NCBI RefSeq assembly: GCF_026210795.1
Contig: NC_089448.1
Location: 2,604,001-2,668,000, forward strand
From: Rhizophagus irregularis
Lineage: Eukaryota; Glomeromycota; Glomeromycetes; Glomerales; Glomeraceae
DNA: 64,000 bases
Direction: 5' to 3'
Part shown: positions 11,041 to 16,640 of the stretch, piece by piece
How the letters are laid out: each line of letters opens with the position of its first letter
Position numbering within the stretch: the first letter of the stretch is position 1
Notes under the pieces: model-generated
Told to the model about the DNA's origin: nothing
Seen by the model: the letters and a program-made list of their open reading frames with translations, nothing else
Database searches by the model: none
Made by a program: the position numbers and the translations under genes

Positions 11041-12058
11041 AAAAAATATCAGAACTAATAGTTCTGAAGTTTTTTTATATAATAATGCCGGAACTATTGC
11101 TTCTGGCATATTTTTTTATAGAAACACTGGAACTATAGGTTCCAACATTTTCTTTTAATTTTTTTATATAAAAATACCAAAACTACGGCTCCTACAGTGT
11201 CGTTTAGTTAAAACCTCTCCAAAATCCTGCGATAAATTTCGGCAAGATTTTACTATATGTTTACTATAGTTTCGGCAGGGTTTCAGCAGTTTCGGCAAAT
11301 GGGGGTTTCGGCATTTCGGCAAAGTTTCGGCAGGATTTTTAATATGATTTAATATAGTTTCGGCATTTTCTGTATAGGTTTCGGCAGTTATTAAGAAGGT
11401 TTCGGCAAGCAACCTTAGTTCCGGCATTTTCTTTTAATTTTTTTTATATAAAAACGTTAAAACTATAATTCTGGCATTTTCTTTTAATTTTTTTTATATA
11501 AAAAATTCCGAAACTATGGTTCTGGCGTTTTCTTTTGATTTTTTTTAATATAAAAAATGCCAGAACTATAGTTCTGGTATTTTCTTTTAATTTTTTTTAT
11601 ATAAAAACGCCAGAACTATAGTTCTGACGTTTTCTTTTGATTTTTTTTTATATAAAAATGCTGGAACTATGGATTCCGGCATTTTTTTAATTTTTTTTAT
11701 GTAAAAATGCCAGAACTATGGGTTCTGGCATTTTTTTTAATTTTTTTTAATATAAAAATGCTGGAATTATGGGTTCTGGCATTTTTTTTTAAAAAGTTTA
11801 TTTTTTTAAAAAACACTGGGACAATAGGTTCCAGTATTTTTTTAAATTATTTTTTTAAAAAACGCTGAGACAATAGATTCTAGCATTTTTTTTTAAATTT
11901 TTTTTTATATGAAAACGCCAGAACTATGAGTTTTGACGTTTTTTTAAATTTTTTATATAAAAATGCCAGAACTATAGGTTCTGGCATTTTTTATTATTTT
12001 TTTTTTATTAAAAATGCCAGAACTATTGGTTCTGGTGTTTTAATTTTTATTTTTTTTT
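11041..12058. repeat. Tandem array of short hairpins, left block
   Basis: About 15 units spaced 50-65 bp. Each is an inverted repeat of the type TGCCAGAACTAT plus GGTTCTGGCA with A-runs before and T-runs after, followed by TTTTAATTTTTTTTATATA. Stems vary between units but often change on both sides (ATGCCAGAA/TTCTGGCAT, ACGCCAGAA/TTCTGACGT, ACACTGGGA/TCCAGTATT). One unit at 11172 is cut by a MITE. The array continues at 16499-16640 after the 4.4-kb transposon. Confidence 0.85.
11196..11417. mobile_element. hAT MITE copy (left end lost)
   Basis: Same family as the copies at 28026, 45290 and 46693: internal AACCTCTCCAAAATCCTGCG, many TTTCGGCA words, and the right end GGTTTCGGCAAGCAACCTTA. The left terminal repeat is not recognisable (GTCGTTTAGTTAAAACC), so no target duplication can be checked. 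It sits inside a hairpin unit of the array. Confidence 0.75.
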
Positions 12059-12382
12059 CATATGGGCCGATTTGGCTCAATTCATTAATTAAATTTTAGT
12101 GATAATTATGAATTTTGATCGTCATACCGCTCATAATAGTGATGATATCGTATGATGCACATGACGTTTTTGTATTTAAACCAATAATCGAAGGCTTAGC
12201 ATTCGTTTGAAACTTGAAATCGCAAGTACGAAACAAGTTGCGAATTGGTTTTGAATTGGTTTTTTTAGGAAGGAACTGGTTTTTTTTAGAATTGGTAAGT
12301 GTTATTTTAAAAGAACAAAATATTGATAATTAGCAAAGCTTTTGGTTTTAAAATACGAAAAAATAGCAGAAATAATTCAATT

Positions 12383-12835
12383 ATGTTAGAACAAAGTGAA
12401 AGTAATATACTTTCTTGTATATTTTTTTTTAACATTATAGAAATATTCTAATGAAATTTTTTCATTAATAGATACTTTCTCTAGTCGCGTTTTTGTACAT
12501 GACTACCCAAACAGTTCAAAAATAGAAGCACATTATCAGTCAAATGGAAAATTATATAATTCGTATTATAATATTATTTCGTTAGGAATATATCCTCCAT
12601 CACCAAAATTCACTCAAAAACCCAGAAATAATGCGTCCCAATATCCGATTCCTAACAACTATATAGTTGAAACAGAAGTTTCTGGATGGACTCTTAGATG
12701 TGAAACTAAATATACTTCAAATTTAAAAGTATGCTATACAATTAGTTGGAAAGAAGGACGCGCAGAATGGAGTGTTAATAGTACAAAATCTTCCACAGCA
12801 GTTGCTAATACATTTTTACAGATATGTACTAATTA
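12383..12835 (+). CDS. N-terminal segment of transposon protein, unknown domain
   Basis: ATG at 12383 opens a 19-nt exon (MLEQSE) that can splice GT..AG to 12472, giving ENTFSSRVFVHDYPNSSK and a ~120-residue domain with ETEVSGWTLRCETKYTSNLK, ISWKEGRAEWSVNS and a stop at 12833-12835. I do not recognise the domain. It may be the first part of the transposase gene whose next exon begins at 12901 (KIGQKHSTKLSGPRLFGLD), but I found no canonical junction joining the frames, so it could also be a separate small protein or a decayed join. Confidence 0.4.
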
Positions 12836-12900
12836 ATATTTATATTAACAAATGTAATAATTTATAAACACTACAATTGATTTTAATTTTGTTTAATTAG

Positions 12901-15020
12901 AAAATTGGCCAGAAACACTCAACTAAACTTTCTGGACCGCGATTATTTGGATTGGATATTGAGCCATTATATAATTTTCATTTACAAATTGGATCTCTCC
13001 CTATTATTACTACTGCAACAAAAGTTAATGAACGAAAAAGACCACTTGAAGATATCACTTCATGATCACAGCAAAATAAACGAATCAATAGTTTTGGATG
13101 TGATGTTCAGAAAGCAGTTGATGAACTAATTATCAAACATAAATTAACAAATTCATCTGGACAACCAATTATGCATATGCATTATATAGAATTTGATTAC
13201 AAAGAAAATCAAACTTATATTAAATTTGGAGATTCAAATTCCACAACTACACAAACAAGACTTGATTCTATTGTACGTGTATGTGATGAAGCATTTTTGG
13301 GTCATGATGGATATCGACATTTGGCAGCAGTTGTGCCAATTCTTTTTCGTGAATATTTAGTTGCTAATCGTCGAAATAAGATTAATGAACTTATAAATAT
13401 TCAAATTCACATAGGGAATTTTAATATAGATAAGGAAATTAATAACCAATCCAGTATTGATGATGATGTTAATGAATATACTGGTGATATTTTAGTAGAT
13501 GATCATGAAGTAGGAAATGGAGCTTTTCGTTCTCTTTTAACTTTACTTAAAGCATTAATACCTATTTGGAAAGCAGGAGAAAATCCTGTAATAATTCCAG
13601 GAAATACTCTTTATATTAAACTTGGTGGTGATGGTCGTAATGTTGGAAGAAAGCAAAATCATGTAATGATAACATTTTGCTTATTAAATGAAGGTAAAGA
13701 AGTTTTAAAACCCGATCATCAATATTGGTAATTATTATATCTTTTGTTAATGTTTGATAAATAATAATTATTTTAAATTATTTTAATTATTTTACATATA
13801 ATTATTAGCATTTGCCTTTATGTAGGACGTGAAAAATATGAAGATTTAGCAAAAGTTGGACAATTATTTCAAAATCAATTATTTGATTTAAAAAATAATG
13901 GAATTATCGATCAAGATGGTATTCATTGGCCAACTGAATTATTTTTCTGTGGAGATTGGAAATTCATGTACATAATTATGGGTCAAAGTGCACCTAATTC
14001 CAAATATTTTTGTTTATACTGTGATTGTGAAGCAACATCACGATGGGATATGAATAGAACATGGAATAATACAGTAAACACAAAATGTATGTTTATTTAA
14101 GATTGTTATACTATTATTATATTAATTTTATTAATTTTTATATAATATTAATTATTAGGTGAAAGAAAATCTCCATTATTTCCAGCAATTAACCAAGAGA
14201 ATTATATACCAGATGAATTACATTTGCTTTTACATATATCAGATGTCTTAATGGAGTGTTTATTTGCTGATTTAATTAAAAACAAAGATTTTTCAAAACA
14301 AATCAAATCAGCAATTGAATTGGCATTTAAAAACATTAAAGTTCATTTTGAATTTTTTCAATCCAAATCAACTGGAAAACAATGGAATTGGACTTCTCTA
14401 ATGGGGCCATATAAAAAGATAATGCTAGAAAAATTTCCAGTATCACAGTTTATTCCAGGTACTTGTGAAGATGATATAGAAAAATTGTGGCGAGAATTTT
14501 ATCGTTTATATATGTTTTTACATAAAGCACATCTTTCAGATCAAGAGATTGATCAATTTGAAATTGATGCTCAAAATTGGATCCACATATTTTGCCATCC
14601 AACTCAAGGTTGTATAAATAGTTCTATTCAAATTCCTGGTTTATACAAAAAAGAAGATGTCACACCTTATATGCATGTTTTTGCAAAACATGTACCTCAA
14701 TTCTTGCGTCAATTAAAAGAAAAAAGTCTCTCTTTGCAAATTCTTTCTACTTCAAGTATAGAAAAAAAAATCACAATCAGGTATAAGAGAATTAATTTGT
14801 TTTTTTTTTATTTGAAAATGTTAAAAATTTGTTTTTATTTTATTGCTACTTAATTTAGGTTTGTTTATTTTTTGGAGGTACTACTATGGATGGAGGAACT
14901 GATGGAAAATCAGTTGTATATAATATAATGTCTTTTGAGAACCGCCAATTATTTTATTTAATTAACAATACTCCTAAAAAAATTGTTGCTAGAAACATTA
15001 ATGTCAATAAAGAAAATTAA
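12901..15020 (+). CDS. Transposase-like protein, RAG1/Transib-like motif order, one frameshift
   Basis: Exons 12901-13727, 13809-14086, 14159-14780 and 14859-15020 join at GT..AG sites. Landmarks in order: a helical N-terminal part (VRVCDEAFLGHDGYRHLAAV); LGGDGRNVGRKQNHVMITF with a candidate catalytic Asp at 13630; CICLYVGREKYEDLAK; FFCGDWKFMYIIMG with a second Asp at 13954; a Cys-x2-Cys pair (YFCLYCDCEA); a His-rich helix (DELHLLLHISD); and TPYMHVFAKHVPQFLRQ. It ends at SIEKK with a third acidic residue, Glu, at 14761, and an NHNQ string one frame away. Spacings are 81 and 245 residues. That order (D, D, CxxC, H..H, E..N) is like RAG1/Transib-type RNase-H-fold transposases with an insertion domain; inference only. 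Defects: an in-frame TGA at 13063, removable by a possible 48-nt intron 13024-13071, and a one-base shortfall in a 9-A run at 14762-14770 before the last exon. Confidence 0.6.
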
Positions 15021-15129
15021 ATTTGTTAAAAATTAAAAAATTCTTAAGGATTCATTTGTTTCAGGTTTGTTTCTAAAAATAAATGTAAAAATTGTAAATT
15101 ATAAACAAATAAATTTATTAAAATAATAT

Positions 15130-15400
15130 ACTCATCAACAAATTCTTCAGAATTAGTAATAAATGTACAAGTTGCAGTTCCATACTGAAAATTTTGCACG
15201 TTTTCATTTAATTCTAATAGTAAGGCAAAAGAAGGGAGGTATGGTGGGGTATAACTTTGTTATTGCAGCATTTATTTCTTTACATGTTAAAAGTTTGTTT
15301 TTAGAAGAAAATTTTAATGGCAAAGTGGACATTCGTTATATTCATGAACAAAAATGTTCGCATTCAGCATTATTACAAAATTCTATTAAACATGTTGAAT
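15130..15400 (-). pseudogene. Decayed partial copy of the zinc-finger gene
   Basis: Two blocks match the neighbouring minus-strand gene: 15140-15215 resembles 15790-15870 (the end coding for the IFQCGTVICTFT region) and 15225-15345 resembles 16205-16330 (the zinc-finger part; CPLC here against CYLC there). The middle is missing and there are stops in all frames. It looks like an internal duplication followed by deletion and mutation. Confidence 0.6.
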
Positions 15401-15599
15401 AATATTCCTAATGAAATAACATGTAGAAACATTAATATTTATAATGGTGAAAATACAATCTAAATTATGTTTTATGTACAAAACTTCTAATTTATAAATT
15501 ATTTATTTCTGGAATTCTGGTTGAAATCCAAAAAAAAAATTCTATTACAATATCTATAAATTATTTATTGATATTTTTGATTTAATTCTTGAAGGGGGG

Positions 15600-16325
15600 A
15601 GCGTGGTAAAATAAATCTAAATTGCGATTGATTATTTGTTTTAGTAATAGTAGGTATTGCAGAGTGAGCAGAAGTGTAATTTTCATTTGTTACTTCATTT
15701 CTAAAAAAAAAAAAAATCAAAATATTAATTCTTCAAAATTATAAGAGATTTGTATGCAGAATTCTGAACCTTACCCATTAATAAACTTTCCTGAATCCGT
15801 TGTAAATGTGCAGATAACTGTCCCACACTGAAAGATTCGGTTGTTTTCAACCAATTCATTCTGTGCCCAACTGAAAGAAACTTCATAAATTTCTTCACTA
15901 TTCACAAATAGTACATATCCCGTTGTTTTTGTTTTGGGATCTTGTCGGCAATTCCAGTATTCATAGTTTAAAATTTGCTTTAATCTACCTTCTCCTGCCT
16001 CACCTTTAAATGTACAACGATATTTTCGTAGTGCCGAATTATACCTAAAAGAAGGTTCATTTTGAAATAAATAAACAAATACATTCTCAGGAAAGACACT
16101 TATTGAGAGTCGTTTGGATCCTACGGAATGTCTATTGAAACCAAGACGTTTTTTAATTAAGACTATAAACGCATCTTATTAAGATACAAGCTGCTCAAAA
16201 GTAGGCTGGTGGAGTAAATGGAAATGAGGTATAGTTTTATTGTTTTTATGCTTAGTTCTTTCATGAGTTAAAAGTTGTTTTCGTGAAGAAAAGGTTTTTT
16301 GGCAAAGGTAACATTTAAATGACAT
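15600..16325 (-). CDS. C2H2 zinc-finger protein carried by the transposon
   Basis: Starts MSFKCYLCQKTFSSRKQLLT at 16325: a Cys-x2-Cys-x12-His-x4-His finger (CYLC ... HERTKH). A second open block (16151-15778) reads RLGFNRHSVGSKRLSISVFP, EGRLKQILNYEYWNCRQDP, VLFVNSEEIYEVSFSWAQNE and IFQCGTVICTFTTDSGKFI; a third after an intron-like gap reads RNEVTNENYTSAHSAIPTIT and FRFILPRSPLQELNQ. Between blocks one and two the frame changes, so an intron or a lesion lies at about 16150-16185. A single DNA-binding finger encoded convergently to a transposase suggests an accessory DNA-binding factor; that is inference. I do not recognise the second domain. Confidence 0.5.
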
Positions 16326-16498
16326 GTCGGATACAGTAACGCGTGATTGTGCCGCAGCGTGAATTTAGTTATTTAGTTGTAATTGGGTAAACAATAATTA
16401 TATGACAATGTGACATGTATAATAGTTAAACTGGTAATGATCGACCGTCAATCATTTCGTAGGTGATATAACTGATGTGAGCCAAATCGGCCCATATG

Positions 16499-16640
16499 TT
16501 TATAAAAAAACGCTGGAACTATTGTTTTCAGCATTTCTTTTTTAATTTTTTATAAAAATGCCAGAACTATTATTTCTGGCATTTTTATTATTTTTTTTAT
16601 TAAAATTGCTGGAACTATTAGTTCTGGCATTTTTTTTTGC
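16499..16640. repeat. Tandem hairpin array, right block
   Basis: Three further hairpin units (AACGCTGGAACTATTG..., ATGCCAGAACTATTATTTCT..., TTGCTGGAACTATTAGTTCT...), continuing the array that the 4.4-kb transposon interrupts. Confidence 0.85.

Follow-up and report, generated by a model that had tools for sequence, protein, structure and literature searches.

The window analysed here, a 64,000-nucleotide stretch of the genome of the fungus Rhizophagus irregularis (assembly GCF_026210795.1, contig NC_089448.1, positions 2,604,001 to 2,668,000 of the forward strand; G+C content 28.7%), contains at 12059-16498 a DNA transposon bounded by perfect 21-bp terminal inverted repeats (TIRs). An earlier reading made from these letters alone (hereafter the sequence-only reading) had placed the repeats exactly and had described an intron-containing plus-strand gene with LGGDGR, FFCGDWKF, CLYC and DELHLLLHISD motifs, all of which are present; absent from it were a convergent minus-strand zinc-finger gene and a 1-bp target duplication. 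The element and its immediate borders are laid out as follows, D1, D2 and E being the three candidate catalytic residues of the transposase.

12058, no strand: T, left copy of the 1-bp target duplication (within a T run, indecisive for the window copy alone)
12059-12079, plus: left TIR, CATATGGGCCGATTTGGCTCA (from the sequence)
12441-12836, plus: first transposase coding segment, N-terminal domain (precise exon boundaries uncertain)
12904-13727, plus: transposase exon with D1 (GGDGRN, codon 13630; 5' end not settled)
13728-13808, plus: intron, GT..AG (from the sequence)
13809-14086, plus: transposase exon carrying D2 (GDWKF, codon 13954) as well as C-x2-C (codons 14011 and 14020)
14087-14158, plus: intron, GT..AG, 72 bases (from the sequence)
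14159-14780, plus: transposase exon with DELH (14212), H-x4-H (14674) and the putative catalytic E (SIEKK, codon 14761)
14781-14858, plus: third intron, ahead of the C-terminal tail
14859-15020, plus: last transposase exon, C-terminal tail (FFGGTTMDGG...FENRQLFYL) up to the stop
15090-15395, minus: degenerate, incomplete repeat of the zinc-finger gene's 3' portion (translation by eye; limits approximate)
15771-16325, minus: convergent second gene, encoding a C2H2 zinc finger (MSFKCYLC...THERTKH) and a domain of ~130 aa
16478-16498, minus: right TIR, exact reverse complement of the left TIR (from the sequence)
16499, no strand: T, right copy of the 1-bp target duplication (flank comparison)

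Once the introns are removed, D1 and D2 are 81 residues apart and D2 and E 245, the very spacings that had been given before. The element had also been called nearly intact, which is true of its anatomy but not of its genes. The transposase frame is broken by an in-frame TGA (13063-13065), SIEKK is present but NHNQ, previously taken as part of the same C-terminal end, lies in a different frame owing to a frame change in the A-run right after SIEKK, and the zinc-finger gene has two in-frame stops (16176-16181). The window copy is therefore decayed and no longer encodes uninterrupted proteins. A nearly full-length copy that is 95% identical to it (L001) has no stop at the site of the TGA, but has other stops as well as deletions of 59 and 2 bases. 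The A-rich run past the catalytic E (window 14762-14770) varies by one base among members: in the eight loci whose run was caught by the search pattern, it is one base shorter in the window copy, L001 and L003 than in L002, L006, L030, L050 and L051, which may reflect decay, assembly error or slippage.

The window copy belongs to a large family of fungal DNA transposons that has been active recently, and is itself a worn member of it. In the 146.7 Mb (32 contigs) of the genome that was searched, the TIR has 15 exact matches and 125 with up to three mismatches (0 and 1, respectively, for a reversed control pattern), while a DNA search with the element and a protein search with exon 4 return at least 66 and at least 152 matches. 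The family includes an intron-poor subfamily with open frames of up to 605-812 aa, the core of which is ~28-30% identical over 535-649 aligned residues. Since three elements, L021, L022 and L023 (open frames of 787, 787 and 812 aa), share 98.6-99.3% mutual identity over ~3.65 kb and sit at different sites, transposition of the family has apparently been recent. A domain resembling, by eye, the N-terminal domain of the window transposase opens the long frames of L021 and L022. At the other extreme are non-autonomous forms of just 52-62 bp (L014, L015, L053 and L054), with both ends present and equal flank bases, three of which (L014, L015 and L053, not L054) have the core TTGATGATCGACATTC in common. 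We also noted a 5.8-kb element (L018:156-5959) with family ends and a 1-bp flank match that has neither a transposase nor a zinc-finger match. No relatives were confirmed in IMG/VR viral contigs or in prokaryotic genomes, searches from which records close to the window genome were possibly left out.

The two-gene plan is a constant of the family. A transposase together with a convergent C2H2 zinc-finger gene is found in all 19 coding elements, i.e. in 19 of the 23 examined, and neither gene is matched in the other four (L018 and the short L007-L009). The zinc-finger protein of the window copy can still be aligned with that of L022, from the distant subfamily, at 22% identity.

Collecting further copies and aligning their termini and target duplications, as had been proposed, yielded this large family and a 1-bp duplication in nearly all elements compared. 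The comparison covers the 33 elements with both ends found, loci with unpaired ends (L010, L016, L017, L020, L026, L027, L031 and L035, and the small loci L055, L057-L062, L065 and L066) having been excluded before counting. Family ends are palindromic and of the CATATG type, with CA..TG at both ends in 31 of the 33 elements (L001 and L013 have one deviant end each, right and left, respectively), and the base outside CATAT is the same as the base outside ATATG in 32 of them (binomial tail 1.1e-15, for a chance of 0.31 per pair). When flank pairings are shuffled 20000 times, a mean of 12.0/33 and a maximum of 22/33 agree. Flank agreement does not extend further, falling to 4/33 over two bases, 1/33 over three and 0/33 over four to eight. 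Elements with the subfamily ends CATATCGGC..GCGCATATG (L021-L024) or CATATGTGC..GATATG (L025 and L034) show the same one-base behaviour. The window copy, lying in a T-run, is consistent with a 1-bp duplication without being decisive.

An equal flank base might arise without duplication, by insertion into NN dinucleotides or because the base belongs to the terminal repeat, and the AT-rich flanks do make matches common by chance. The duplicated base, however, can be any of the four (A 16, T 11, G 3, C 2), and since it varies between elements it is not part of the terminal repeat. Empty sites speak against this explanation as well. A genome search with joined flanks minus one base gave 77 matches, of which 14 spanning a junction were fetched, paralogous sites for seven insertions (one each for L003, L007 and L033, two each for L006 and L025, three for L034 and four for L004). 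All 14 fit best as left plus right flank minus exactly one base, better than under models with zero or two duplicated bases or with duplication of CATATG. Equal flank bases without duplication are thus highly improbable, and the target duplication of the family is one base, any base. CATATG as a 6-bp duplicated target, tried as a candidate, was rejected because empty sites fit it worse. A literature search for 1-bp duplications, mostly outside subscription journals, turned up by title no DNA transposon family. Spy elements are related to PIF/Harbinger. They make no target duplication according to a reference title in PMC4455052 (for this and all other papers cited here by number, our statements cover the part of the text that was available); compared by description, Spy resembles the present family in standing at the shortest-duplication end of the known range, and differs in having no duplication at all.

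What kind of transposase makes such a duplication? From 44 loci with a transposase core, 20 members were aligned (alignment A2), near-duplicates and most broken loci being left out. D1, both C and the H of DxLH are conserved in all 20, D2 in 19, and each H of H(4)H and E in 19 with one gap. These are the eight landmark residues named in PMC12730594 for CMCT transposases (CACTA, Mirage, Chapaev, Transib/RAG1, Plavaka), each of which is thus found in 19 or 20 of the 20 members. Pfam and NCBIfam scans of the same members named no transposase family, weak hits being below Pfam cut-offs or at NCBIfam E-values of at least 0.028. Against 177,635 Protein Data Bank (PDB) sequences, the 20-sequence profile places RAG1 or RAG1-like chains at ranks 1-5 of 6 (E 0.024-0.32) and a 5-sequence profile at ranks 1-4 of 6 (E 0.23-0.55). 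These chains are mutually homologous and count as one event, and the list would be biased toward RAG1 if, as far as is known, there is no CACTA structure in the PDB.

Direct profile comparisons with hhalign give a more even picture. With mouse RAG1 the family scores 37.2 (E 0.001 for a single comparison, probability 21%), versus 18.8 for reversed RAG1 and at most 27.9 for 150 shuffles; D2, C-x2-C, D-x-L-H and H-x4-H are collinear, D1 and E being outside the aligned stretch. With L081, a CACTA-type (PF02992-matching) protein from the same genome, it scores 40.1 (E 0.0007, probability 27%) in an alignment that, at a permissive setting, spans D1 and D2. A second such protein (L083) reaches 22.9; a profile built from 10 CACTA-type sequences reaches 35.3 (E 0.005, probability 7%), aligned from D2 to E, and RAG1 itself scores 23.1 against the latter profile. 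Because L081 does about as well as RAG1, RAG1/Transib is not singled out, and the family would appear to be related to both RAG1 and CACTA-type transposases without being assignable to either. The sequence-only reading, which favoured the RAG1/Transib group, was right about motif order and insertion-domain layout, which match RAG1, and of its two proposals the second, a sister group sharing that layout and perhaps an undescribed superfamily, has the better support.

We conclude that the element probably belongs to a family of cut-and-paste DDE transposons that represents a new lineage related to CMCT transposases. Since its landmark residues and ends agree with those of CMCT elements and its duplication lies outside their described range of 2-5 bp (PMC12730594), we read it as a CMCT-related lineage of its own, not to be filed under Transib, EnSpm, Plavaka or ESTA. 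What the sequences show directly is the family itself, its ends, two-gene layout and conserved landmarks, the 1-bp duplication with its empty sites, and the near-identical copies at different sites. A bolder version has, in our opinion, about an even chance of being correct: the family would then be a new lineage of superfamily rank among transposons with a RAG1 fold, seen up to now in this fungal genome alone. Its target duplication, a single base of no required sequence, would be the shortest for any DDE transposase, its ends would be the palindrome CATATG, and its convergent two-gene plan would resemble that of RAG1/RAG2 transposons, with a C2H2 protein as the partner. Several points weigh against our interpretation: (i) the 1-bp duplication is itself foreign to CMCT transposons as described, (ii) L011 is the single element of the 33 without an equal flank base, (iii) L051 has Y in place of D2, (iv) the PDB E-values of 0.024-0.32 are not significant alone and the Transib structure 6pqn is missing from the hits of the 20-sequence profile, (v) hhalign probabilities are low throughout, (vi) a single-sequence AlphaFold2 model of window 13066-14787, read through introns, was uninformative (mean predicted local distance difference test score 34.7) and was left unused, and (vii) mobility is deduced from sequence comparison. 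As for L011, the left flank of L011:95-202 ends in CATATGG, and it has perhaps inserted beside another end.

Two known groups each offer a competing placement. It is unlikely, although the better of the two, that the family is an offshoot of CACTA/EnSpm-Plavaka with a one-base instead of a 2-3-bp duplication (the latter as described in PMC12730594). The scores of L081 and of the 10-sequence profile, in which the final E is aligned, would fit, as would the same landmark residues in the same order and the CA..TG outer bases, which are those of EnSpm and PlavakaB. But L083 scores poorly, the ends match neither CAC..GTG nor the Plavaka ends of PMC12730594, and no A2 member (0/20) matches PF02992 (Transposase_21) at E 0.5. 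The genome contains 155 matches to this model; of the 150 listed, none starts within 6 kb of any of 134 family places. Still less probable is that the family belongs to the RAG1/Transib superfamily proper, as a divergent fungal Transib with altered ends and stagger. RAG1 chains do top the PDB list, and the profile alignment with mouse RAG1 is collinear. With RAG1, Transib and RAG-like transposons (RAGL) the family shares the D, D and E residues, the C(2)C that follows D2, the DxLH, the H(4)H ahead of E, a similar D2-E distance (245 versus 254 in mouse RAG1, the latter a figure from the sequence-only reading) and, as in RAGL, two convergent genes (PMC7204232). Moreover, Transib-like proteins have been reported in fungi (PMC9435367), and Transib is reported, from hidden Markov models, as a new superfamily in R. 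irregularis (PMC11075540); the latter count may include these very elements, and the available part of that paper contains no description of the ends or duplication length of R. irregularis Transib. However, Transib and RAGL make 5-bp duplications (5-bp match 0/33 here) and have CAC-type heptamer ends, to which CATATG bears no resemblance, as had been remarked before of the TIR; a CACTA-type protein aligns equally well; the RAGL partner is a kelch/PHD RAG2-like protein and the partner here a C2H2 protein in all coding elements; and PF12940, the Pfam model of RAG1, has no match among the A2 members or in the genome, although in the genome scan its control was equally silent. A search for literature on Rhizophagus, RAG1 and transposons, mostly outside subscription journals, found none.

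ESTA, a TA-duplicating CMCT lineage of rust fungi for which HHpred similarity to RAG1 has been reported (PMC12730594), is like our family, as far as a comparison by description goes, in being fungal, in its CMCT motifs and in its RAG1 similarity, but duplicates TA rather than any single base. KDZ/Zisupton elements differ in their 8-bp duplication (given for Zisupton in PMC12730594), an 8-bp match being found in 0/33 elements here.

Transposition by this CMCT-related family would proceed as follows: (i) the transposase, presumably with an RNase H fold, would bind the inverted ends of CATATG type, probably with help from the element's own convergently encoded zinc-finger protein, (ii) D1, D2 and E would cut at the outer C of CATATG, (iii) the freed ends would be joined to target DNA with a one-base stagger and (iv) gap repair would therefore leave a 1-bp duplication of any base. 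We infer the D-D-E catalysis and the place and order of the cuts. The interest of such a scheme is that the geometry of the strand-transfer complex determines how long the stagger is; a one-base stagger in a transposase built like RAG1, the enzyme that shuffles antibody genes, and like CACTA transposases would be a new solution. The family is another convergent two-gene transposon outside animals, useful for understanding the origin of RAG1-RAG2-type pairs, and puts a name to a fairly large group of elements, apparently active in the recent past, in a fungus for which two-thirds of the transposable elements are reported as unclassified (PMC11075540).

Concerning the partner protein, its profile has as best PDB match a zinc finger (7txc, E 9e-8), and the best 60 of 178 PDB matches all fall within positions 6-78, around the finger, with no match for the remainder of the protein among these 60; Pfam finds the C2H2 finger below its cut-off. 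Around the window copy, the flanks at 11900-12045 and 16500-16640 consist of short AT-rich hairpin repeats around TGCCAGAACTAT, and the element lies within this array.

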